From Melioribacteraceae bacterium (lineage in GTDB: Bacteria; Bacteroidota; Ignavibacteria; Ignavibacteriales; Melioribacteraceae): a stretch of 64,000 nucleotides of DNA. The stretch's first letter is position 1, and each line of letters opens with the position of its first letter. The translations under genes and the position numbers were made by a program. The stretch lies in the NCBI GenBank assembly GCA_016342755.1, contig JAEINS010000006.1, positions 124,001 to 188,000 on the forward strand. The letters are read 5' to 3'. The notes below the pieces were generated by a model. That model made no database searches. It worked only from the letters and a program-made list of their open reading frames with translations, and was not told where the DNA came from. Shown in pieces: positions 19,070-31,479 of this stretch.

Positions 19070-19993
19070 ATGAGAATTGCCCACATTTCGGATTTACATA
19101 TTAGTCTGTTTTATAAGAAAGAAAATGTATACAAAACTCAAAAAGCTTTTGAAAACATATTAAACCAGGACGTTGATCATATAATTATAACAGGCGATAT
19201 TTCTGATAATGCTGAATGGAAAGAGTTTTTGGTTTTTAGAAACATATTAAAGAACTTAGATCTCTTAGATTCAAAAAAAACAACTTTAATAATTGGAAAT
19301 CATGATATTTTTGGCGGAGTGCGAACAGCTGAAGATGTGATCAGTTTTCCTTCTAAATGCAGAAATATAAATTATGAAGAAGCCATTTTAAGGTTTACTA
19401 ATTATTATATTGAATTGTTTGACGATGTAAAATTTTTAAATCCTAAATCGTTTTTTCCTTTCATAAAAACTATTGATGAATATTGTATTCTCGGTATTAA
19501 CTCAATTGATAAATATTCTACTTTTAGAAATCCATTTGCTTCAAACGGGTATATTGCAGACAATCAGTTTAAATTAATAAAAGAAAAGTTAAAACTGAAT
19601 GAATATAAGGATTCTAATATAATTGCAGCGGTGCATCATCACTTTTATAAAGCAAATGAAGAAACAACCAGTTCAGCCAGCAGACTGTGGGATAATATTG
19701 AAAAGTTTACAATGAAACTTCGAAAGAAAAAACGGATTATAAAACTATTTAGTGAAAACAATATAAACCTTGTTCTTCACGGTCATAGTCATGAAATGAA
19801 AACATACAAAAGAAAGGAAATTCAGTTTGTTAATGCCGGTGCTTCAATAGATAATAAGCTGCATAATGCCTCCTATTATTTAATTGATTTAGTTGATAAT
19901 GATTTTACTATAAGAAGAAAAAGTCTAGAAATTGAAGAAAATTTTAATAACAGAGAACTATCAGCGAAGGAAATAATATATTTAGCCGGTTAA
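19070..19993 (+). CDS. Calcineurin-like metallophosphoesterase
   Basis: 307 residues with all metal-binding motifs: ISDLH at residues 6-10 (Asp8, His10), TGDISD at 41-46, GNHD at 76-79, a VHHHF block and HGHSH in the C-terminal third. The family covers cyclic-nucleotide phosphodiesterases (CpdA), lipid and protein phosphatases; the N-terminal IAHISDLHIS resembles the CpdA group. No signal peptide, so it acts in the cytoplasm. ATG 19070 has a GGGA site. It stands alone facing away from the sugar operon. The substrate is open. Confidence 0.82.
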   Translation: MRIAHISDLHISLFYKKENVYKTQKAFENILNQDVDHIIITGDISDNAEWKEFLVFRNILKNLDLLDSKKTTLIIGNHDIFGGVRTAEDVISFPSKCRNINYEEAILRFTNYYIELFDDVKFLNPKSFFPFIKTIDEYCILGINSIDKYSTFRNPFASNGYIADNQFKLIKEKLKLNEYKDSNIIAAVHHHFYKANEETTSSASRLWDNIEKFTMKLRKKKRIIKLFSENNINLVLHGHSHEMKTYKRKEIQFVNAGASIDNKLHNASYYLIDLVDNDFTIRRKSLEIEENFNNRELSAKEIIYLAG

Positions 19994-20162
19994 ATTATTT
20001 CTGGTTACTTAAAGTTCGTAGTTAATTTAAGTGTTTCATTTTTCTTTTTTGATAGTTAAATTAAAACATGAAATAGTTTATAAGAATATAATATCCCTTT
20101 TTTGTAACTGTTTCTTATTGTTAATCATTATTATCTAGTAAAAATCTTATGATAGTTGTTTA

Positions 20163-20729
20163 ATGAGTTTTTGTCATTTTAAGTTAATAAGGAATTTTTT
20201 CTTTTTATTTGTGAGTGCATCTGTTGTTTTTGGTGATGTATATACAAATAATGAAAATATAATTAATCAGTTAAAAGCTGTTTACTTAGAAAAATTTTCT
20301 CTATTTACAGATTGGCCGTCTGAATCAAAAATATATGATAAAGACAAACCCTTTATTATAGATATATTAGGCGAAGACTCTCCATTAAGCCAGGAAATCA
20401 AAAGAACATTTCAAGAAGAAAACATTAGTATTTTAAACAAAAAAGTTAAGTTTAATTTTATTGAGAAATTCAGTGAAATTACGGATTGTCATATACTTTT
20501 TATAACTGAAAATAGCATTAATACAATTGAAGAAATTGCTGACTTTGTAAAAACTAAACCAATATTAGTAATTAGTGATGTTGAAGGTGATGCCCAAAAA
20601 GGAGCTCATATAAATTTTTATCTAACTTCCGAAGGAAAGCTTCATTTTGAAATCAATGCAAATGTCGCAAGGTCTTCACGGGTTCAGATTAATTCAAGAT
20701 TATTAAGAATAGCAAAAATTATTGAATGA
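20163..20729 (+). CDS. YfiR-family (DUF4154) periplasmic protein, copy 1
   Basis: 188 residues with a hydrophobic signal sequence near the N-terminus. Family marks are LKAVYLEKFSLFTDWP near the start of the mature protein, ITDCHILFITE in the middle, and PILVISDVEG.AQKGAHINF with SSRVQINSRLLRIAKII at the end. In Pseudomonas, YfiR is a periplasmic redox-sensitive inhibitor of the diguanylate cyclase YfiN; here no cyclase is near. The P. aeruginosa disulfide cysteines are not kept (only one Cys in the mature part). It is followed 146 bp later by a paralogue, then by three TonB receptors. Confidence 0.82.
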   Translation: MSFCHFKLIRNFFFLFVSASVVFGDVYTNNENIINQLKAVYLEKFSLFTDWPSESKIYDKDKPFIIDILGEDSPLSQEIKRTFQEENISILNKKVKFNFIEKFSEITDCHILFITENSINTIEEIADFVKTKPILVISDVEGDAQKGAHINFYLTSEGKLHFEINANVARSSRVQINSRLLRIAKIIE

Positions 20730-20875
20730 CTTATTTATTAATAATTAGAAGTATTTAATTTTTTAAATAAATCCCGATAATACTTTTACATGAATAATAA
20801 ATAAAAAAATAGCAAAAAATAAGACTAATAGGCATTTGTGAGTCAGCTTAAAAAACTGATTTTATTAAACCCCTA

Positions 20876-21421
20876 ATGAAAATTGCGAAGATCATATCGA
20901 TTTTTATCTCAATTGTATTCTTATGCAATTTTACCTCTATTATAGATGATACCCCGATTTATAAATTAAAAGCAGTTTACCTTGAAAAATTTTCCCTCTT
21001 TGTTAGCTGGCCGGAAGAATCTAATATAGCTGATACTACAAAAAGCTTTGAAATTACCGTAATTGGAGAAAATCCTTTTGAGGGTGAACTTGTAGATTTG
21101 TATGTAAAGGGTAATGTTAAAATTTGCAAAAAGAAAGTAGATGTTACTTTTATTGAGAACATTGAAGAAATAAATAACTGCCAAATACTATATGTTGCAG
21201 AATCCGCAAATAACCAATTTAAAGAAATTTATAAAGCTGTAAAAGATAAGCCGATTTTAGTAATTACCGATACTCCGGGATTTGCGGAAAAAGGAGCCCA
21301 TATTAGTTTTTTTGTTTCTAATGAAGGGAAACTTAATTTCGAAATAAACAAGAATAGAGCAACTGAATCGGAAGTTAGAATAAGTTCCAGATTGCTGCGG
21401 ATTGCAAAAATAATTGACTAG
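20876..21421 (+). CDS. YfiR-family (DUF4154) periplasmic protein, copy 2
   Basis: 181 residues, clearly related to the preceding gene: LKAVYLEKFSLFVSWPEES, INNCQILYVAES, PILVITDTPGFAEKGAHISF and EVRISSRLLRIAKIID align without large gaps. A signal peptide spans about residues 1-22. Its stop is 9 bp before the ATG of the first TonB receptor, so the two are one transcript. DUF4154 genes next to TonB receptors and sensor kinases are frequent in Gram-negative bacteria, which points to envelope signalling linked to outer-membrane receptors; a precise role is not known. Confidence 0.84.
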   Translation: MKIAKIISIFISIVFLCNFTSIIDDTPIYKLKAVYLEKFSLFVSWPEESNIADTTKSFEITVIGENPFEGELVDLYVKGNVKICKKKVDVTFIENIEEINNCQILYVAESANNQFKEIYKAVKDKPILVITDTPGFAEKGAHISFFVSNEGKLNFEINKNRATESEVRISSRLLRIAKIID

Positions 21422-21430
21422 AGAGTGACT

Positions 21431-23626
21431 ATGAAGAAGAATAAAATATTGATTTTGATGATGTTCGTGACTCTGTGTTTTATTTCAGAGACTTCTTTTT
21501 CACAGGAAAAAACTCTGACAACAAAAGATCTTTTTGCTATGTCGCTTGAGGAACTTATGGATGTTAAAATAGTAACGGCGGGTAAAAAGGAAGAAAAATT
21601 ATCAAGCGTTCCGGCAAGTGTTTATGTTATTACCAGAGAAGAAATTGAAAGACTTGGTTTAACCTGTTATACCGATCTGCTTCAGCACATACCCGGTTTT
21701 TATATGATAGATGATTATTACTGGCTTGGATCTACAAGTTTTGGAGTTAGAGGATTCTTTTCAACGGGACCAATGAATAACCTTATAATTCTGATAAATG
21801 GTGTAAATCAAATGTCGGATAAATACTCAGACTATCCGGATGTTAAAATAAATGTGCCAATTGAATCGATTGAGAGAGTTGAAGTAATTAAAGGTCCAAT
21901 GTCCGTAATATATGGATCAGGTGCGTTTTTTGGAGCAATTAATATAATAACTCACAATCCTGAATCAGATTCCCAAACTAAAAAAGTTTCTGTTTCATAC
22001 GGAACCGGAAACAGAAAAAAAGCAGCCTTAAAATATTCTTATAAGGAAAAGGATCTAAGTTTTACCGTTAATACTGCCTATTGCCGTTATGAAGGAATTG
22101 ATATACCATTTAAGGATTTAACAACAAAAGAAGGTATACTTAATTATGTTGGTTTAGCACCGGACGCGACAACTGCCGGACAATTGGATACTGAGAGAAA
22201 ATATTTTAGTCTGGCACTTAATCATAAAACTTTTTTTGCTGATTTTAGTATTTCCGAAAGCCAGAAAGATGTTTTCGACGCTCAGCCAAATCTGCCAAGA
22301 GGTTCTGAACTAAATACAAAAGCCGCAAATGCTGTTATCGGATTTAATTATCAGATTTCAGAAAAACTAAAAGGTAAAGTTAAACTGGGATATTATTCAC
22401 ACAGTCATACTTTGGATTATGAAATATTCAGACCTAATTATTACGAAATAGACGGGCAGAATACAAACTCTTATGATGTTGAGATAAATGCTATTTATAA
22501 TGTTAAGAAAAACTTAAACTTTGATTTTGGACTGTATAGAAGAACTGTTCTGGATATACATCAAATATCCGATTTTGGTTATTACGGACTTGATTATGGC
22601 GCGGGAGAACATGGACTTCCATCGGGCGAAACATATTCAACACATGCGGTTTATACACAGGCAAGCTATTCGCCAACGGATAAAATTAAGCTGGTTGCCG
22701 GAATTCGTCTGGATCATCTTGATGATTACAATATTGAAGTTACACGTGGTATTGTAACCGAAGATCCTGCTGACGGACGTAATCCGGACGATCCGGATAA
22801 CCGTACAATTATTAAGAGTAAATACGAACCTAAAGACAATGGGTTTTCAACAGTAACACGTCTGGCGGCAATTTATTCTCCGGTTAAAAATCATGTAATT
22901 AAACTTATGTGGGGTCAGGCAGCAAAACAGCCTTCATTTACAGAAAACTACAGACAATTACCCGGTGGTTATCCGTTTCTTGATGCCGCAAAAATAAATA
23001 CTCTGGAATTAAATTATCTATTTAATTATGGGACTAAATTTTCGGCAAACCTAAGTGTTTTTTATAATACTATAAATAATTTAATCTCGTCTACAAATAT
23101 CTACGACCAGACAACAGGCCAATGGGATATATTCAGCTATACATCAGGTAAAATGGAAACTACCGGATTAGAGGCCGGATTAAGATGGCAGCCTTTTGAT
23201 ATAATAAGAGTTGAAGGAGATATAAGTTATCAGATATCTGAAGATAAAAAACCCGGATACGAAGATATTGAGCCGGGATATTCTCCGAAACTATTGGGGT
23301 ATTTTAGCCTGATATATACTTATAATAAAAATAGATCTATTACGCTTAGCGCAAGATATATGGATGAAATGTTTACTTTATGGAAAACAGATACAACTCC
23401 TGAAAATGGACAGAGAATTGGGGATAAAGTTGATTCCTATTTTGTTATTGGTATTAATTTTCTTAGAAAAAATATATTAGATACTGATCTTTACGCGTCA
23501 CTTAAAATAAACAATTTATTCGATCAGGAAATTAGATATCCTACAACAACATCAAACTCATGGGCCAATAAAGGTACTGTCGGTATGGGAAGATCGGTGT
23601 TGTTTACACTTGGATACGAATTTTAG
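21431..23626 (+). CDS. TonB-dependent outer-membrane receptor 1
   Basis: 731 residues from ATG 21431 (AGAGAG site upstream). After the signal peptide comes TKDLFAMSLEELMDVKIVTAGKK, an N-terminal stretch shared by all three receptors here, then a plug domain (VPASVYVITREEIERLG, LLQHIPGF, IERVEVIKGPMSVIYGSGAFFGAINI) and a 22-strand barrel ending in aromatic VLFTLGYEF. No SusC-type carboxypeptidase-regulatory domain and no SusD gene are present, so this is not a glycan utilisation pair. It probably takes up a siderophore, cobalamin-like or other small ligand, or relays a signal. I saw no cobalamin riboswitch upstream. Confidence 0.9.
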   Translation: MKKNKILILMMFVTLCFISETSFSQEKTLTTKDLFAMSLEELMDVKIVTAGKKEEKLSSVPASVYVITREEIERLGLTCYTDLLQHIPGFYMIDDYYWLGSTSFGVRGFFSTGPMNNLIILINGVNQMSDKYSDYPDVKINVPIESIERVEVIKGPMSVIYGSGAFFGAINIITHNPESDSQTKKVSVSYGTGNRKKAALKYSYKEKDLSFTVNTAYCRYEGIDIPFKDLTTKEGILNYVGLAPDATTAGQLDTERKYFSLALNHKTFFADFSISESQKDVFDAQPNLPRGSELNTKAANAVIGFNYQISEKLKGKVKLGYYSHSHTLDYEIFRPNYYEIDGQNTNSYDVEINAIYNVKKNLNFDFGLYRRTVLDIHQISDFGYYGLDYGAGEHGLPSGETYSTHAVYTQASYSPTDKIKLVAGIRLDHLDDYNIEVTRGIVTEDPADGRNPDDPDNRTIIKSKYEPKDNGFSTVTRLAAIYSPVKNHVIKLMWGQAAKQPSFTENYRQLPGGYPFLDAAKINTLELNYLFNYGTKFSANLSVFYNTINNLISSTNIYDQTTGQWDIFSYTSGKMETTGLEAGLRWQPFDIIRVEGDISYQISEDKKPGYEDIEPGYSPKLLGYFSLIYTYNKNRSITLSARYMDEMFTLWKTDTTPENGQRIGDKVDSYFVIGINFLRKNILDTDLYASLKINNLFDQEIRYPTTTSNSWANKGTVGMGRSVLFTLGYEF

Positions 23627-23654
23627 AATTAGATTAGTTTAAGGATTAAATTAA

Positions 23655-25784
23655 ATGAATTCTATAATTGAAAAATTCAGAAATTATTATGCCTTGGTTT
23701 TTATAATCAGCATTGTAATATCTAGTACAAATTATGCGCAGGAAACAAAATCATTAAGTAACGAAGAACTTCTAAACATGTCGTTAGAAGACTTAATGAA
23801 TATTCCGGTTATAACGGCTTCTGATAAACTGGAGGATTTGCTGGATGCTCCGGCAAATATTTATGTCCTATATGGAGAACAGTTAAGGAAACGCGGTTAT
23901 ACTTCTTTGCAGGATTTAATGGCCGATTTGCCGGGAGTTACCTGGCTAAACAGATATTCTGCTTTTAATGCCCAGGTAATTAGAGGTCAGTATAATTCTA
24001 AAAGATTAACACTTATGTTCGATGGAATGATTTATAATCCCAGAAACGGATTTGGTGTGCAATGGGCAGACAGGTTCCCAATTGAAGGAGTTGAAAAAAT
24101 AGAATTTATAATTGGTCCTTACGCTTCGTTATATGGCCGCAATACATTTTCCGGAGTATTAAATGTTATAACAAAAAAAGGGGAAAAGCTTAAAGGCGGA
24201 GAAGTTAATTTTCTTTACGGCAAAGATAATCAGTTGCAGTCTTCTGTTGTAGCGGGTAATAAAATCGGTGAGTGGGATTTTTACATGTCGCTATTTAAAA
24301 ATTACAGCAATAAAGGAGTTGATCTGGCAGAAGAATATCCTGAATATTATTCTAAGAAAAATAGAGAAAAGGAAATTTTTGAAGGAAATCCGGTAATTAT
24401 AGCCGAAGGTGTTTCATCTGATATGATTTTACCCTGGGATAACAATGAAGTTTATTTTAAAGTTAGTCATAAAAGCGGATTAGATTTTCAGTTGCAGTAT
24501 AACCACTCTGATATGCCAAAAATTGGTGCCGGATTTACACCTTTATATTATGTTTCTTCGGAAGATTGTAAATTGACAGATAAAATGCTGAATGGATCCC
24601 TGAGTTATAAGTATAAACTAAATGAAGATTTGATGCTTTCTTCTCATTTTACCTATCAGAATTTTGACTGGCTGGCAAAGAACATTTATGTAACCGGAAA
24701 CCACAGATGGTATACGCAAAAAGCAGAAACGTTTATGTTTAATCAAAAAGGGCGTTGGCAGGCTGCTGATTGGAACGAACTGTTTTTTAATATTTCGGTA
24801 GAAAGGGTTTATGAAAAAGACCTGATTACATCTACACCTAATAAACCTGCATGGACTAAGGATAATAAACATGAAGTAGATTATCTTAACATTTCAGTGC
24901 AGGATCAGATTCATCTAACAAAAAAACTGAATCTGGTAGTAGGACTGATGTATGAAAAATCTGATCTTTATAAAGATGTGTTTATTCCCAGGTTCTCCGG
25001 AATTTATTCTTTTGATAACCGGAATATACTTAAGCTAATTTATTCTGCGGGTTTTTTAACACCTGATCCCGAGGTAAGAGTTACGCAATATGATAGGAAT
25101 GGCGCAATAAACTTATATGGCCGTACCAATATGGATCCCGAGTATATTAATAGTTTTGATCTAAATTTTACCAGATTATGGAATAAAAACACATCAACAA
25201 TTTTAAGCATATTTTATAATCAGACAAATGATTTTATTCAGCAGGTTGAAGATTTATCAATGCCCGGTATAAGAACATGGAAAAACATTGGAACTACATC
25301 ATCGTACGGATTCGATTTTACAATTAATTCTAAAATAACAAAATCATTGCAAAGCTGTTTTTCATATTCTTTTGTTGATGGCAGTATACACGATCTTTTA
25401 ATTGATAATTTGTTATCAGAAATAGACAGACTTCCTACCCAGGCAATTCATCATTTTAAATTTTCTATTTGTTATACATTCTGGGATGATAAATTAAATT
25501 TGTACTTAAATGATCTGTTTATTGGAAACCGTTATACATGGGAAGATGAAAAAATTAACGGTTATCAGTTTGCTGTACCTGATTATAAGTTAGCCGGTTA
25601 TAACATTGTTGATATAAACTTAAACACGGCAAATAAATTTAGTGATAAATGGAGGTTTTCTGTCGGTATCAGAAATTTATTTAATGAAGACGGATTTGAT
25701 CCCACTTACTCCGATTATTCAGTTTCAAGCTATAGCCCAATTAGAAAAAGATGGTGGAATATTCAGATAGGGTATAAGTTTTGA
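23655..25784 (+). CDS. TonB-dependent outer-membrane receptor 2
   Basis: 709 residues, 28 bp after receptor 1. Signal peptide, the shared NEELLNMSLEDLMNIPVITAS segment, plug domain (APANIYVLYGEQLRKRGY, DLMADLPGV, VEKIEFIIGPYASLYGRNTF, LNVITKKG) and barrel with a C-terminal IQIGYKF. The GPxxSxYGRNTF plug end replaces the more common YGSGAF. It is as divergent from receptors 1 and 3 as separate family members usually are, so this is an old expansion and not a recent duplication. Ligand unknown. Confidence 0.9.
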   Translation: MNSIIEKFRNYYALVFIISIVISSTNYAQETKSLSNEELLNMSLEDLMNIPVITASDKLEDLLDAPANIYVLYGEQLRKRGYTSLQDLMADLPGVTWLNRYSAFNAQVIRGQYNSKRLTLMFDGMIYNPRNGFGVQWADRFPIEGVEKIEFIIGPYASLYGRNTFSGVLNVITKKGEKLKGGEVNFLYGKDNQLQSSVVAGNKIGEWDFYMSLFKNYSNKGVDLAEEYPEYYSKKNREKEIFEGNPVIIAEGVSSDMILPWDNNEVYFKVSHKSGLDFQLQYNHSDMPKIGAGFTPLYYVSSEDCKLTDKMLNGSLSYKYKLNEDLMLSSHFTYQNFDWLAKNIYVTGNHRWYTQKAETFMFNQKGRWQAADWNELFFNISVERVYEKDLITSTPNKPAWTKDNKHEVDYLNISVQDQIHLTKKLNLVVGLMYEKSDLYKDVFIPRFSGIYSFDNRNILKLIYSAGFLTPDPEVRVTQYDRNGAINLYGRTNMDPEYINSFDLNFTRLWNKNTSTILSIFYNQTNDFIQQVEDLSMPGIRTWKNIGTTSSYGFDFTINSKITKSLQSCFSYSFVDGSIHDLLIDNLLSEIDRLPTQAIHHFKFSICYTFWDDKLNLYLNDLFIGNRYTWEDEKINGYQFAVPDYKLAGYNIVDINLNTANKFSDKWRFSVGIRNLFNEDGFDPTYSDYSVSSYSPIRKRWWNIQIGYKF

Positions 25785-25806
25785 TAATTCTTGCGGGAAA
25801 TAATAT

Positions 25807-27771
25807 ATGAAACGATTTTACATTTATTTAATATTCTTTTTTAACATAACTATATTTACTAATGCCCAGGTTATTAATCTAAGTTCACAGGATCTGGTAA
25901 GTATGTCCTTAGAAGAATTGATGAATATTAAAGTGAGTGTTTCCTCGGTTTTGGGTGAAGAAATTTTTGATACTCCGTCGAGTGTTACAATAATTGATAG
26001 AAGTTCAATAGAAAAATATAATTATTCAACAGTAGCCGAAGCTTTGCAAACGGTGCCTGGTTTTGAAGTTCTGCAGACTATAATTGATAGAAACGTTTCT
26101 ACCGCGAGAGGAATACTTCAAAATTTTTATGCTAATAAGGTTTTAATCTTAATTGATAATATTGCAACCTGGCAGCCAATTTATGGTGAGGGATATTTAG
26201 AACGAATAAGTATTAACGATGTAGAAAGAATTGAAGTGTTAAAAGGTCCGGCTTCAGTTCGGTATGGCAGTAATGCGTATACCGGTGTTGTAAATATAAT
26301 TTTGCGAAAGGATAAAAAAAACAGCGTAAAAGGATTTGGTACTGTCGGTATTAGTAATATTGCTTCTGCCGGAATTTCTGCTAATTATTCATTAAAAGAT
26401 ATCAAATTATTTACCTCGTTTAATATGGAAAGTAATGAAGGTGAATTATATAGTTTGAAAAGTGCTGAGGGCAGAGAGTTTTATGATGAAAAAACGTACA
26501 TGTATTCAAATTCAACTGACCTTAAAAACTTCAATTTTATAGCGGATTATGTAAATCACTCTATTCATTTTAACTGGTTTCATTATCAACATTCTTTTAG
26601 AGGTGCCCATCCTTCTTATATTAGTGGCGGCGGACAAATGGTTGATAATCACGGATTTCTTTTTAATTATAAATACAATAAAAAAATATTAGATAATTTT
26701 GATGTAATTGGAAAGGTAACTTATGATTATTTTAAACGTGAATTTCCGCTTTCAATTGATAAAACTAATTTAGTCAGATTATCCGGAAATAGAATAAATA
26801 GCGAAGTTGATTTTAATTATATGTTAAATAATCTGAATTTTGAATTTGGCTTAGATGGCGATTTAAGAAGAAGCGGCGGACACGAAACAAGAAACGGAGT
26901 GACTGATAAACTTATAAGCAGTAATCTTAAAAATGATGAAAATATATTTGAATGGTCCGCATTTACAAGATTGAGATATAATTATAAAAACCTAAGTGTT
27001 TTAGCAGGCGAAAGATATACTAATAATAAAAATTTCGGCGATAATGTTTCAGCAATAATATCCGGAGTTTATTCAATAAATTACATGCATAGTTTAAAAC
27101 TGATTTATGCAGAATCATTTAGAGTTCCCACAATGTTCGAATTGTACTTTGAACATCCGACAGTAGTTGGAAATAAAAATTTAGAACCTGAAACAAGTAC
27201 ATCTTATGAAGCTGCCTATCTATTTGGATCTTCTAACTTTTTTATTCAGGTCTTAGGCTATTATGCTTCTTATGAAAATCTGATCCAGAGAGTTGCAATT
27301 TCCAGTAATCAGCCTAATGAATATCGTAATTTTAGTAGCTTCGACGGATATGGCGCTGAAGTTGAAATAAAATACGATGATCCCAAAGTTATAAGCGGAT
27401 ACTTAAATTATAATTATCTGGCTGGCGATGATGAAGCTGAAGAAAATAATTATAGGTTTGTGCCTGATCATACTTTGTCTTTTGGTTTAAGTAAAAATAT
27501 TAAAACACTTTTTATTTCGGTTAATGGTAAAGTTATATCAAAGGTTGAAGGTCATTTAAACAAAATTGATCCGCAAGTGGAACTGAATCTTAATTTGGGA
27601 TACAACCAATCGTTAGGTAAAATTAAGATGCGGCACATATTTAGTGTTAAAAATATAACCAATAACAAAATGTATATACCGGAATATATTAGACAAACAC
27701 CTAATATTAATCAATTAGAAACAGCGGATATTGGCACCAGTTTTATATATTCAATGTTTTTCGAATTTTAA
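25807..27771 (+). CDS. TonB-dependent outer-membrane receptor 3
   Basis: 654 residues, 22 bp after receptor 2. Signal peptide to about residue 20 (TIFTNAQ), the segment SQDLVSMSLEELMNIKVSVSS, plug domain (TPSSVTIIDRSSIEKYNY, ALQTVPGFEVL, DVERIEVLKGPASVRYGSNAYTGVVNI) and a shorter barrel ending SMFFEF. It carries the heme/ferrichrome-type plug ending RYGSNAYTGVVNI. It is the last gene of the five-gene run; a convergent secreted protein gene follows 99 bp on. Confidence 0.9.
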   Translation: MKRFYIYLIFFFNITIFTNAQVINLSSQDLVSMSLEELMNIKVSVSSVLGEEIFDTPSSVTIIDRSSIEKYNYSTVAEALQTVPGFEVLQTIIDRNVSTARGILQNFYANKVLILIDNIATWQPIYGEGYLERISINDVERIEVLKGPASVRYGSNAYTGVVNIILRKDKKNSVKGFGTVGISNIASAGISANYSLKDIKLFTSFNMESNEGELYSLKSAEGREFYDEKTYMYSNSTDLKNFNFIADYVNHSIHFNWFHYQHSFRGAHPSYISGGGQMVDNHGFLFNYKYNKKILDNFDVIGKVTYDYFKREFPLSIDKTNLVRLSGNRINSEVDFNYMLNNLNFEFGLDGDLRRSGGHETRNGVTDKLISSNLKNDENIFEWSAFTRLRYNYKNLSVLAGERYTNNKNFGDNVSAIISGVYSINYMHSLKLIYAESFRVPTMFELYFEHPTVVGNKNLEPETSTSYEAAYLFGSSNFFIQVLGYYASYENLIQRVAISSNQPNEYRNFSSFDGYGAEVEIKYDDPKVISGYLNYNYLAGDDEAEENNYRFVPDHTLSFGLSKNIKTLFISVNGKVISKVEGHLNKIDPQVELNLNLGYNQSLGKIKMRHIFSVKNITNNKMYIPEYIRQTPNINQLETADIGTSFIYSMFFEF

Positions 27772-27870
27772 TTAAGTAATAGCGGTTATAGGAAATCTAA
27801 AATCTGTTTTGGTAGATAAATATTTACTCTGATAAATAAACCGGTGTTTTTATCACTAAATACCCAGGGT

Positions 27871-28362
27871 TTATTCACACGGATTAAAATCAAGATTCCA
27901 TATTACAAAAGAAATTTTAATGTTGTCATCAGATTCAACATTCCAAATTTGAAAGTAAGAACCGTAATAGGCTTTTGGCTTTACCGAGTTTTTAGAACTA
28001 ACCGCCATTCCAAAAGTTCCTCTCTCAAAAATTTCATTTCCATTCTGCCATCTTTTTTCAACATTTCCGCTAAACGAGTGATACTTTAATTTTTGATCAA
28101 TATCTCTTTTGTAAGCCTCGCTAAGAGCATCTTTCCCTTTTATAGCCGGATTAAAACCGGGCATTATTATTACATCATCCGCGTAATATTTTACAATGCT
28201 TAGCAATTTCCCGTCTAATGTGGCTCTTTCCATTATTGTTTGTAACTTGTTCAGCTTTACCTCAGTTTTTTCCGATATATTTTGCGCGTCAGCTAAGGTA
28301 AAACTGGTAAATAAACAAATGGTAATTAATAGTTTTGAATTTAGGAAAAACCGGGTTTTCAT
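27871..28362 (-). CDS. Secreted SnoaL/DUF4440-like (NTF2 fold) protein
   Basis: 163 residues with a signal peptide (to about residue 26, FTLADAQ). The rest has the NTF2-like pattern of DUF4440: a first helix (KLNKLQTIMERATLDGKLLSIVKYYADDVIIMPGFNP), AIKGKDALSEAYKRDI, then beta strands VEKRWQNGNEIFERGTFGM and SYFQIWNV. Such proteins are small-ligand binders or enzymes without a common reaction. It faces the TonB receptor genes and is read toward them; 194 bp upstream the propeller sensor starts divergently. Confidence 0.72.
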   Translation of the reverse strand: MKTRFFLNSKLLITICLFTSFTLADAQNISEKTEVKLNKLQTIMERATLDGKLLSIVKYYADDVIIMPGFNPAIKGKDALSEAYKRDIDQKLKYHSFSGNVEKRWQNGNEIFERGTFGMAVSSKNSVKPKAYYGSYFQIWNVESDDNIKISFVIWNLDFNPCE

Positions 28363-28556
28363 ATTTTTCTCTCTAATTGTTTAACATATAACAAAAAAAT
28401 ATATTTATAATATTGAAGAAGAATAAAATATAAAGCGTATGAAAAATTTATAATACTGAATTAATTATTGATTTAATAGTTTAATATTTATAAACTCAAT
28501 AAGTTTAAATATGATGTATAATCAATACTAAATTGATAAGTAAAAAAGTTAAAGAG

Positions 28557-30446
28557 ATGACAAAAAATAGTAACGTAAAAATAATTATAGCTTTAGCTAT
28601 ACTATTGTTAAACAATTTTAATCCTTTAACTAAAGCTGGGGAAAATAATATTTCGTTTGAATATATTACTTCCAACAACGGGTTATCGCAAAATGCTGTT
28701 TATGCAATTCATCAGGACAAAAAGGGGTTTTTGTGGTTTGGAACTGAGGATGGATTAAATAGATATGACGGCTACAATTTTAGAATATTTAAATTCCAGA
28801 AAAATGATTCAACCAGTATCTCGAATAATTGGATTACAGCAATAAAAGAGGACTCATACGGTTACCTCTGGATCGGGACAAAAAAGGGACTTAATAAATT
28901 TAATCCGGTTACAGAAGAGTTTATTTCATATTTGCATTCTGATAAAGAAGGATCAATTTCGGGCGATATTATTTCTACTATTCAGATTGATAAAAACGGG
29001 ATTATCTGGATTGGCACTATAGGCACAGGGTTAAATAGTTTTGATAGAAGTAAAAATACATTTTCTCATTATAATTACAATGAATCCAACTCAAATTCAA
29101 TTAGTGATAACAGCATTTTTTCTTTGTACGAAGATCACCACGGGTATTTATGGATTGGCACTGTAAATGGCGGTCTAAACCGGTTTGACCTTAATACTAA
29201 TACAATCAAAAGATATACACATAACGCTGATAATAAAAAAGGTATTCCCAGTGGTTCGGTTAGATTTTCATTTTGTTATAAGTCAGATAAACTATTAGTC
29301 GGAGTTCAAAATTCCGGATTGTTTTTATATGATTATTCAACAGAAGAATTTACACTTTTTGAGTTTGCAGAAAAAAAGAATAAAGTGGTTCCGGTTAAAA
29401 TACGTTCATACTGGCTGGAAGATAATGATAATAAGCTGTGGATTGGGACTTTAGGAGAGGGACTATTTTTTATAGATCTTGAATCAGGAGAAATTAATCA
29501 CATAAATGATGACGCTAAATTAAAATCCAACCTTAACAATAATACAATTTTATCGATGTTAAAAGATAACACAGGTACTTTTTGGATTGGTACAAGCGGA
29601 GGCGGTGCAAATAAATTAAAGAACTCATTTTTTCATCATTTTACAAGGACAGCAAATTTTAACTTATCAAGCAAATTAGTCTGGTGTTTTTATGAGGACA
29701 ATAATAACATAGTCTGGGTGGGAACTGGCAAAGGAATTAATCTTTTTGACCCAAATAAAAGGACTGTAAAAAAACTTATTATTGGCGGAGATAAATCGTT
29801 ATTTATAAATAATGTTGCAGTATGGACAATTGCCAAAGAACCAGACAAGAATATTTATTGGCTGGGTACAAGTCAGGGATTGGTTAAGTATAACAGATCA
29901 AAAAACACTTATAAAGTTTTTAAGAATGATGAATCCGTTTCTACAAGTCTGAGTAATAATCAGGTTTGGAAAATATTTATAGACAGCAGTAAAAGAATAT
30001 GGATAGGCACAGACTACGGATTAAATCTATACAATTCTAAAGGGGATAATTTTAAACACTATGAAAGTTTAGCAGATTCAACTTCAATTTCTTCCAATCT
30101 TATTAGTGACATAATAGAAGATGATTTAGGAAATATCTGGGTTGGCACAACGGATAACGGAATTAGCGTATTAGATAAAAATGGAAATGTAATTAGCGGC
30201 TTATCAGAATATGATGGATTAACCAGTGATGAAATAATCTGCATGTATAATGATAATACTGGAAATGTATGGATAGGAACAGGGTCCGGGTTTAATGAAT
30301 TTGATACCAAAACAAAAACAATAAAACAGTTTGGTGTAAATGAAGGACTTCCAAATGAATGTGTTTACGGTTTTCTGGAAGATAATTTAGGTGACTTATG
30401 GATTACTACAAATGGCGGAGCAGCAAAATATTCAAAAAAAAAATAA
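28557..30446 (+). CDS. Two-component-regulator propeller sensor, N-terminal part (frame broken at its end)
   Basis: 629 residues from ATG 28557; a TTG at 28533 is the alternative. A signal sequence is followed by about twelve propeller blades, each with a WIGT/WVGT motif and then GLN.FD (FLWFGTEDGLNRYDGY, YLWIGTKKGLNKFN, NIWVGTTDNGISVLD and others). That is the periplasmic double beta-propeller of the hybrid two-component sensors of Bacteroidota, which bind oligosaccharides. The frame ends in an A10 run (30434-30443) with SKKK and a stop, while the missing Y_Y_Y and membrane parts continue in the +1 frame from there. One base fewer in the run would join them. Confidence 0.82.
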   Translation: MTKNSNVKIIIALAILLLNNFNPLTKAGENNISFEYITSNNGLSQNAVYAIHQDKKGFLWFGTEDGLNRYDGYNFRIFKFQKNDSTSISNNWITAIKEDSYGYLWIGTKKGLNKFNPVTEEFISYLHSDKEGSISGDIISTIQIDKNGIIWIGTIGTGLNSFDRSKNTFSHYNYNESNSNSISDNSIFSLYEDHHGYLWIGTVNGGLNRFDLNTNTIKRYTHNADNKKGIPSGSVRFSFCYKSDKLLVGVQNSGLFLYDYSTEEFTLFEFAEKKNKVVPVKIRSYWLEDNDNKLWIGTLGEGLFFIDLESGEINHINDDAKLKSNLNNNTILSMLKDNTGTFWIGTSGGGANKLKNSFFHHFTRTANFNLSSKLVWCFYEDNNNIVWVGTGKGINLFDPNKRTVKKLIIGGDKSLFINNVAVWTIAKEPDKNIYWLGTSQGLVKYNRSKNTYKVFKNDESVSTSLSNNQVWKIFIDSSKRIWIGTDYGLNLYNSKGDNFKHYESLADSTSISSNLISDIIEDDLGNIWVGTTDNGISVLDKNGNVISGLSEYDGLTSDEIICMYNDNTGNVWIGTGSGFNEFDTKTKTIKQFGVNEGLPNECVYGFLEDNLGDLWITTNGGAAKYSKKK

Positions 30447-31479
30447 TTCATTTAAAAATTTCACAAAGGCTGATGGTCTGCAGGATAACGAGTTTAATAT
30501 TGGAGCATATTTAAAACTTAAAAATGGTGATCTGTTAATAGGCGGTATTAACGGCTTTAATCTCTTTACTCCTAATGAAATTCTGTTAAATCCTTTGCTT
30601 CCGGAAGTTGTATTTTCTGAATTAAAAATATTTAATAAACCGATAAGAATTGGACAGGCAGTAAATGGAAATGTTATCCTGACAAAAGCATTAAATGAAA
30701 CTGAAAAAATTACACTTAGTAATGATGAAAATTTTTTCTCGATTGAATTTGCCGCGCTTCATTATGTAAATCCGAATAAAAATAAATACTCTTACATGTT
30801 AGAAGGATTCCATTCAGGCTGGATAAATGCCGATAAAAACAGAGAGGCAACTTTTACAAATCTTGATGCGGGTGAATATAAGTTCCGTGTTAAAGCTTCA
30901 AACAGCGATGGAATATGGAATGAATCCGGTACAACTCTTAGAATTGAGATACTTCCGCCATGGTGGCAAACACGTTTGTTTATAATAATTGCAATATTGC
31001 TGATTTTAACTTTATCCGTTTCGCTCCATTTTTTCAAAATTGAAAGGATAAAAGAAAGAAATTTAAGTCTCTATGATCATAATGTTGAATTGAATGTTCA
31101 AATTAGAGAAAGAAAATCAGCCGAAGAAAAATTAATTAATTCGAAACAAAATCTTGTCGACATTTTAAATTCTGTGTCATCGGTATATATATGTGTCGAT
31201 AAAAATAGTAAAATAATATATCTAAATGCTGAAGCTGAAAAATTTGCGGCAATAAAAGATGTAAAATTAATAGGGGAAAATATTCAGACTGTATTTCCTC
31301 AATTATCTTCCGATACAGAAATTATAAAAGAGGTAATAAACAAAGGGCGGACAAGGTTTTTATGCCGTAAAGTAGAAGATGACTTTCCTCATAAAATTGA
31401 AATTGCTATCTATCCGCTCCGTAAAAAAACAGGTAAAGGCGCGGTTTTGCGTATAGACCGCACCATGGATAATACTTAG
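30391..31479 (+). CDS. Propeller sensor, C-terminal part: Y_Y_Y domain, membrane helix, PAS; kinase domain missing
   Basis: This frame overlaps the end of the previous one; likely coding starts at the A10 run. It carries a last propeller piece (GLQDNEFNIGAYLKLKNGDLLIGGINGFNLF), the Y_Y_Y domain (about residues 95-190, with FSIEFAALHYVNPNKNKYSY), a membrane helix (about 195-215, LFIIIAILLILTLSVSLHF), a short coiled coil and a PAS domain (NSVSSVYICVDKNSKIIYLNAEAEKF). The protein stops at GKGAVLRIDRTMDNT, where related sensors continue with ...EKMMSVGGLAAGMAHEINNPL, the start of the kinase. There is no room for that: the convergent malic-enzyme gene ends inside the last codons (4-bp overlap). 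Confidence 0.75.
   Translation: MTYGLLQMAEQQNIQKKNNSFKNFTKADGLQDNEFNIGAYLKLKNGDLLIGGINGFNLFTPNEILLNPLLPEVVFSELKIFNKPIRIGQAVNGNVILTKALNETEKITLSNDENFFSIEFAALHYVNPNKNKYSYMLEGFHSGWINADKNREATFTNLDAGEYKFRVKASNSDGIWNESGTTLRIEILPPWWQTRLFIIIAILLILTLSVSLHFFKIERIKERNLSLYDHNVELNVQIRERKSAEEKLINSKQNLVDILNSVSSVYICVDKNSKIIYLNAEAEKFAAIKDVKLIGENIQTVFPQLSSDTEIIKEVINKGRTRFLCRKVEDDFPHKIEIAIYPLRKKTGKGAVLRIDRTMDNT
30434..30443 (+). other. A10 tract at the frame break of the propeller sensor
   Basis: Ten A directly before the stop TAA (30444-30446). Nine (or twelve) A would fuse the two halves into one protein reading SKK-NNSFKNF. It can be a real mutation, a contingency (phase-variable) tract, a site of transcriptional slippage, or a sequencing error. 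Confidence 0.6.

Follow-up and report, generated by a model that had tools for sequence, protein, structure and literature searches.

TonB-dependent receptors in general release their Ton box into the periplasm on ligand binding, and the TonB-dependent transducers FecA, FpvA and FoxA work with FecR and an extracytoplasmic function (ECF) sigma factor. The YfiBNR (TpbB) system includes YfiN, the periplasmic domain of which is CHASE8. YfiR acts on YfiN at the sequence AAVVF through a hydrophobic patch of Val160, Phe162 and Leu183, as was argued from mutants, and YfiB sequesters YfiR at the outer membrane (Malone 2012, PMC3375315). The YfiB-binding surface of YfiR overlaps the residues predicted for YfiN (Li 2015, PMC4655355). 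In Pseudomonas the C-terminal patch serves both YfiN and YfiB. Almost all distant Yfi systems are without YfiB and have other outputs, including histidine kinases and methyl-accepting chemotaxis proteins (PMC3375315); the lack of YfiB leaves their outer-membrane input open. Here we analyse a run of five genes for two YfiR proteins and three TonB-dependent receptors in a stretch of 64,000 nucleotides (the window) from a Melioribacteraceae bacterium (NCBI GenBank assembly GCA_016342755.1, contig JAEINS010000006.1, positions 124,001 to 188,000). We propose, with a probability of roughly 0.6, that these genes form the outer half of a trans-envelope relay of the Yfi type, which would lead from a TonB receptor, in the place of YfiB, to YfiR and on to a CHASE8 kinase.

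A preliminary description, made from the sequence alone, had seen two YfiR paralogues ahead of three diverged TonB receptors; the five reading frames and their Pfam domains agree with it:

20163..20729, + strand: YfiR1, periplasmic DUF4154 protein of 188 amino acids (PF13689, 104.6 bits; cut-off 24.9)
20876..21421, + strand: YfiR2, periplasmic DUF4154 protein of 181 amino acids (PF13689, 121.3 bits; cut-off 24.9)
21431..23626, + strand: receptor R1, TonB-dependent (Plug 78 bits, barrel 95.7 bits)
21530..21559, + strand: R1 segment LFAMSLEELM, predicted helix (alignment; helices in models)
21560..21580, + strand: R1 Ton-box position DVKIVTA (phmmer alignment to Cir ETMVVTA and BtuB DTLVVTA; structure, within 1–2 residues)
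23655..25784, + strand: receptor R2, TonB-dependent (Plug 56 bits, barrel 90.7 bits)
23769..23798, + strand: R2 segment LLNMSLEDLM (alignment)
23799..23819, + strand: R2 putative Ton-box position NIPVITA (alignment to R1)
25807..27771, + strand: receptor R3, TonB-dependent (Plug 77.5 bits, barrel 94.6 bits)
25894..25923, + strand: R3 segment LVSMSLEELM (alignment)
25924..25944, + strand: R3 putative Ton-box position NIKVSVS (alignment to R1)

The genes lie on the + strand of contig C37 of the genome (G000) in the order YfiR1-YfiR2-R1-R2-R3, with gaps of 146, 9, 28 and 22 bp, and all five frames are intact. The 9 bp between the second YfiR gene and the first receptor, already pointed out in the preliminary description, hold with the ATG at 21431 that we prefer as the start of R1; the list of open reading frames (ORFs) has a GTG at 21425. 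Each receptor has PF07715 (Plug) and PF00593 (TonB barrel) above the Pfam cut-offs, and the three are mutually diverged (24–29% identity in best local matches). Promoter-like sites (51, compared with 46.8 in shuffles) and terminator-like sites (3, compared with 4.1) were not used.

YfiR1 and YfiR2 are 54% identical and are sisters with a support of 98 in a tree of 68 YfiR domains. The predicted fold of YfiR2 resembles that of YfiR 4zhu (Z = 18.2, root mean square deviation 2.5, 144 aligned), and its Phe (in FEIN) and Leu (in SRLL) align to the patch residues Phe162 and Leu183 of the solved P. aeruginosa YfiR. Both residues are also present in YfiR1, and their columns are at least 90% conserved across 39 YfiR rows. 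By alignment, neither YfiR2 nor YfiR1 has a Cys at either position of the Cys145–Cys152 disulfide of P. aeruginosa YfiR, which is a trait of the P. aeruginosa type and not of the Pfam family. A search of viral contigs with YfiR2 gave 8 pattern matches and no relatives. The likeness to YfiBNR and HmsCDE lies in the fold and patch of YfiR and in the partner found in relatives, in most cases a CHASE8-HAMP protein that carries an AAxxF-type site. The locus differs from them in that the proposed outer-membrane part is a TonB receptor instead of the YfiB lipoprotein, relatives usually have a histidine kinase and not GGDEF as the output, and the run is without a YfiN-like gene. The Pfam scan of the window covered nine genes (19070-31479); the OmpA-like lipoprotein YfiB is not among them, and no whole-genome search for it was made.

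After their signal peptides, the three receptors have the segments LFAMSLEELMDVKIV, LLNMSLEDLMNIPVI and LVSMSLEELMNIKVS, with the common pattern L..MSLE[ED]LM[ND][IV]. The preliminary description had given this as L..MSLEELMNI.V; a common segment is indeed present in all three, and the exact letters need correction, as 'MSLEELMNI' is only a consensus because R1 has D for N and R2 has D for E. In a search of PDB sequences (phmmer), DVKIVTA of R1 aligns to ETMVVTA of Cir and DTLVVTA of BtuB, which we take to be their Ton boxes, and residues 204–208 of the R1 model, in which the D of DVKIVTA is residue 206, superpose on residues 4–7 of BtuB. Alignment and superposition together thus place the segment LSLEELM as a predicted short helix immediately before the Ton box, with R2 and R3 positioned by alignment to R1; only about 40–50 residues, signal peptide counted, precede the Ton box in R1–R3. 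Of the two binding partners originally suggested for the segment, YfiR and TonB, the placement favours TonB for its last part, which falls on the Ton box.

The segment is not a general receptor feature. Among the 41 receptors with a Plug domain in the same genome, it was read by eye before the plug in four, the three of the window and one on contig C24; a profile of the segment (A4) recovers the same four, all of which are rows of that profile. Most of the other 37 have, by eye, a CarboxypepD_reg-like domain at this position. A DUF4154 gene is nearby for three of the four and for none of the 37 (Fisher's exact test, P = 0.0004), a comparison that is not independent, as the three are the window receptors themselves.

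Given a circularity in profile A4 that is set out below, the case for a tie between segment and YfiR rests on a scan of 79 loci and on a sample of 70 genomes from one class. For the scan, the motif [NAS][ML]SLE[ED]LM[ND], derived from the window receptors and locus L075, was searched in one genome per species. The 79 loci come from Bacteroidota, Ignavibacteriota, Pseudomonadota, Myxococcota, Acidobacteriota, Nitrospirota, Planctomycetota, Verrucomicrobiota, Cloacimonadota and others. With all ORFs counted, DUF4154 lies within 2 kb of 38 of these receptors, one of which (L207) has the same sequence as L075, a source of the motif; it is near 33 of the 63 loci with flanks of at least 1 kb on the upstream side and 1.5 kb on the downstream side. 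The genomes of the 41 unlinked loci have DUF4154 elsewhere in 36 of 39 cases, which is weaker than it looks because DUF4154 is common in the class sample (35 of 70 genomes) and the comparison is not phylum-matched.

The class sample, 70 genomes from the class to which G078 (the Carboxylicivirga genome with locus L191) belongs, includes none that supplied rows to A4. It holds 11 full segment matches in 10 genomes, with DUF4154 within 2.1 kb of eight and within 3.9 kb of nine. DUF4154 is present in 9 of the 10 genomes with the segment versus 26 of the 60 without it (Fisher's exact test, P = 0.007; P = 0.012 on dropping G078, which was selected for its segment). Three of these eight (in G199, G228 and G243) have the YfiR gene ahead of the receptor, which is also the order seen in the window. 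Within the phylum of the window genome (99 genomes minus the five donors of A4 rows), DUF4154 occurs in three of five genomes with the segment versus 7 of 89 without it (P = 0.008). These held-out statistics ignore the kinship of genomes. In the class sample as in the window genome, the segment is commoner beside DUF4154 genes and not equally frequent away from them, as the preliminary description had anticipated.

The second line of evidence concerns the partner of YfiR. Across the window genome and 57 relatives, DUF4154 has 31 matches in 20 of the 58 genomes, and examination of the surroundings of all 31 places a TonB receptor in the same run in 27 cases. The four without one are the third DUF4154 gene of the window genome (L061, on contig C31) and L073, L077 and L093, which are located at contig ends or close to them. 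Downstream of the stand-alone DUF4154 genes (20 from relatives and one from the window genome), the next gene encodes CHASE8 in 17 of 21 cases, HAMP in 16, HATPase_c in 15, HisKA in 14 and MCPsignal in one, some of these proteins being cut by contig ends. Of the 21 aligned downstream proteins, 20 retain the Phe of the YfiN-type (AAxxF) motif. All eight long DUF4154 proteins are DUF4154-HisKA-HATPase_c fusions (L093–L100), which place YfiR on the kinase itself, and seven of the eight are beside a TonB receptor. At the loci of the motif scan, a profile of the kinase N terminus, which includes HAMP and may match other sensors, has a match in 34 of the 38 DUF4154-linked loci and in none of the 41 unlinked ones; a loose YfiN-type motif is found in 25 of the 36 profile matches of at least 300 amino acids, some of which are not CHASE8 proteins. 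The earlier view of an outer-membrane signalling unit is strengthened by these kinase neighbours and fusions.

They also bear on plain nutrient uptake, in which YfiR would be a small periplasmic binding protein that takes substrate from the receptor. This explanation can point to the resemblance of the YfiR2 fold to ABC substrate-binding domains (3lkv, Z = 14.1; 3lft, Z = 12.9) and to a related receptor, TOL_0244 of Thalassolituus, which was induced on a long-chain alkane, interpreted as a receptor for uptake and described as similar to OmpS (PMC6304351). The neighbours of the receptor–YfiR pairs, however, are mostly sensor kinases (transporter genes were not searched as such), eight YfiR proteins are fused to kinases and the kinases keep the YfiN-type motif, and we consider uptake alone unlikely. 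OmpS of Alcanivorax, a TonB receptor that resembles TOL_0244, is reported to detect alkanes and to trigger a chemotaxis response, as cited in PMC6304351.

The window proteins themselves resemble the TOL_0243 and TOL_0244 families. The best NCBIfam match of both YfiR1 and YfiR2 is TOL_0243 (NF053591), and TOL_0244 (NF053590) ranks in the top three for every receptor, with the first positions of its model aligned at the segment; the two model names are consecutive locus tags. The window proteins differ from these families in scoring below the curated cut-offs: 105.5 and 113.6 (of 125) for the YfiR proteins, and 113.7, 99.9 and 92.7 (of 645) for the receptors. YfiR is nowhere mentioned in the text of PMC6304351, and no published account that joins TOL_0243 and TOL_0244 was found in the literature searched. 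Likewise, no paper linking a TonB receptor with YfiR or CHASE8 was among the matches listed in a search that left most subscription journals outside. The parts, and the YfiR–YfiN core with kinase outputs, are already in print (Malone 2012); the arrangement with a TonB receptor is new.

Other known receptor systems were considered and set aside. Like FecA, FpvA and FoxA, the TonB receptor is proposed to report its ligand through a region that precedes the Ton box, which would here be a short predicted helix instead of an STN domain, with YfiR instead of an anti-sigma protein. For a FecA-type transducer, no STN match was found in R1–R3 at E 0.01. For SusC/RagA-type uptake, TIGR04057 reached 21 bits (cut-off 46.2) in R3 only. 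The preliminary description had reported no SusD, siderophore or metal genes, and indeed none was matched among the nine window genes with Pfam; siderophore or metal uptake was set aside on the Pfam and NCBIfam results.

Several observations weigh against the proposed relay. No kinase gene and no CHASE8 was found in the YfiR–receptor run (Pfam, nine window genes), and the kinase of the relay would have to be encoded elsewhere. Two CHASE8 kinases are present in the genome: one on C31, beside the third YfiR gene and cut by the contig end, and one on C14, a protein of 798 amino acids (CHASE8-HAMP-PAS-kinase) that keeps the motif as SVGLEF and has none of the three DUF4154 genes of this genome nearby. 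We infer that the C14 kinase is the best candidate for a trans partner of YfiR1 or YfiR2. Upstream of the CHASE8 kinase on C14, at L142:1726-7195, are genes that resemble, by eye, a type III CRISPR module.

The missing kinase could also mean that the array is a remnant, the YfiR-coupled kinase having been lost and the genes being on their way out. The long branches of R2 and R3 (1.93 and 1.81 changes per column in the receptor tree) would fit such decay, as would a sensor gene downstream (28533-31479), with Reg_prop, Y_Y_Y and PAS, which is split into two frames within a stretch of ten A (30434-30443) and lacks any match to a kinase domain. This split may be an assembly slip, or the gene may be broken or phase-variable. 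Against a remnant stand the five intact and tightly spaced frames, the segments and YfiR patch residues kept in every copy, and the retention of two CHASE8 kinases, one of them without an adjoining YfiR gene; we regard decay as quite unlikely. Between R3 and the split gene, on the - strand at 27871-28362, is a gene for an exported-looking protein of 163 amino acids with no Pfam match at E 0.01. A gene with Reg_prop, Y_Y_Y and PAS and an intact kinase (L135:3005-6820) adjoins the segment receptor nearest to R1.

The remaining points on the negative side of the relay concern the segment and its tie to YfiR. The segment receptor on C24 has no adjoining DUF4154 gene. Of the 25 YfiR-linked receptors outside the window, 22 have a segment good enough for profile A4; the variant of L086 contains an insert, and the segments of L087 and L088 are degenerate. 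A4 consists of 26 rows (the three window receptors, the C24 receptor and the 22, which were chosen for their adjoining DUF4154), with L086, L087 and L088 excluded. Searched against the 58 genomes, it gave 36 full matches (at least 43 bits; the next at 35.8) in 20 genomes. DUF4154 adjoins 26 of the 36, including L139, whose DUF4154 is cut by a contig end, and this adjacency, like the figure of 19 of 20 genomes (Fisher's exact test, P = 4 × 10−13), is largely built in because 25 of the 26 are A4 rows. Among the matches that are not rows, only 1 of 10 is beside DUF4154; the nine that are not are in G009 (five), G021, G024 and G043 (two). At the level of genomes, DUF4154 is present in four of the five with a non-row match (G009, G021, G024, G042 and G043) versus 16 of the 53 others (P = 0.044). 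The search for the segment near DUF4154 genes that the preliminary description had proposed thus has two outcomes: the 38 linked motif receptors bear it out, and the non-row relatives, together with the 41 of 79 motif receptors (30 of 63 with both flanks) that have no DUF4154 within 2 kb, do not. In addition, four genomes with the segment (G024, which is 98% complete, G167, G175 and G225) have no DUF4154 match at all.

Phylogeny and structure prediction add to these points. In a tree of 106 receptors (FastTree, with long branches meeting; 8 of the 79 loci that were short, or L163, as well as L086, L092, L099 and L139 were dropped), at least 25 changes of the DUF4154 label are needed, 17 of them forced by well-supported branches, compared with 34.3 in shuffles; cis linkage has therefore often been gained or lost while the segment was kept. 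R1 clusters with four receptors without cis DUF4154. R1–R3 fall at different places in the tree, and the placement of the long-branched R2 and R3 is unsure. A first AlphaFold2 model has the segment as helices beside the plug with a predicted local distance difference test (pLDDT) score of 82–85 and the YfiR half poorly folded; the MAFFT alignment had put YfiR rows over the receptor half, and only the receptor half was used. A second model, built from YfiR rows alone and with the segment but no plug, has a good YfiR fold and the segment beside YfiR at a pLDDT of only 64–74. Across 60 receptor–YfiR pairs (L163 and L207 removed beforehand), there was no signal of segment–YfiR covariation (mutual information 2.82 versus 2.94, s.d. 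0.80, for the rest). We consider direct contact between helix and YfiR possible, somewhat short of an even chance.

The main rival takes up this evidence: the LSLEELM helix would serve the receptor or TonB by guarding or presenting the Ton box, YfiR would touch elsewhere or nothing, and the segment would mark a lineage that often uses YfiR. It would account for a segment that runs straight into the Ton box, for confident helices beside the plug and for the missing covariation, and equally for the unlinked receptors and the label changes on the tree. It does not account for the association of the segment with DUF4154, by gene order and by genome content, in the held-out tests, and Cir and BtuB, in whose solved chains the Ton box begins near residue 6, are without such a helix. 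We regard this rival as a serious possibility at rather less than even odds. The original interpretation of the locus is, overall, partly supported.

Some segment receptors occur in other settings. Segment receptors stand in tandem, with no DUF4154 gene in the locus examined, at L180:4761-9140, L197:7724-12058 and L156:9896-13581. At L215:9902-13977 and L216:162-4405, a segment receptor of 943–971 amino acids is followed by a lipoprotein that is SusD-like by eye, and the segment may also be present in SusCD-type pairs. In a Desulfuromonadales metagenome-assembled genome (L163:8769-10142), one frame combines segment, plug and DUF4154 with most of the barrel gone, followed by a CHASE8-type kinase; it is probably a deletion or an assembly error or chimera and was not used as evidence of fusion.

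In the proposed relay, the barrel would bind an external ligand and the Ton box would be released, with the LSLEELM helix, at the position given by alignment and model, moving along with it. The helix would then capture or release YfiR by way of the conserved C-terminal hydrophobic patch, the residues of which are present and would contact the receptor. YfiR that is freed or delivered in this way would alter the CHASE8-HAMP histidine kinase at its AAxxF-type site, as the linkage and motif in relatives suggest. Three receptors of different lineage would share two YfiR copies, with the kinase in trans.

More broadly, and tentatively enough that it could well be wrong, the missing input of YfiB-less Yfi systems may be a large class of TonB receptors in about a dozen phyla, with an LSLEELM helix that docks YfiR and is exposed by TonB or ligand; these would control kinases, and in one case a chemoreceptor-type output, and are represented here by three receptors and two YfiR proteins with kinases in trans. 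The gene pairs point to the TonB receptor as a candidate input and to the helix of about 10 residues beside the Ton box as a candidate contact. If true, TonB receptors would have a second reporting route besides that of STN, anti-sigma protein and ECF sigma factor, with kinases as the output, and the segment would provide a simple motif test for possible sensors among receptors of unknown function.

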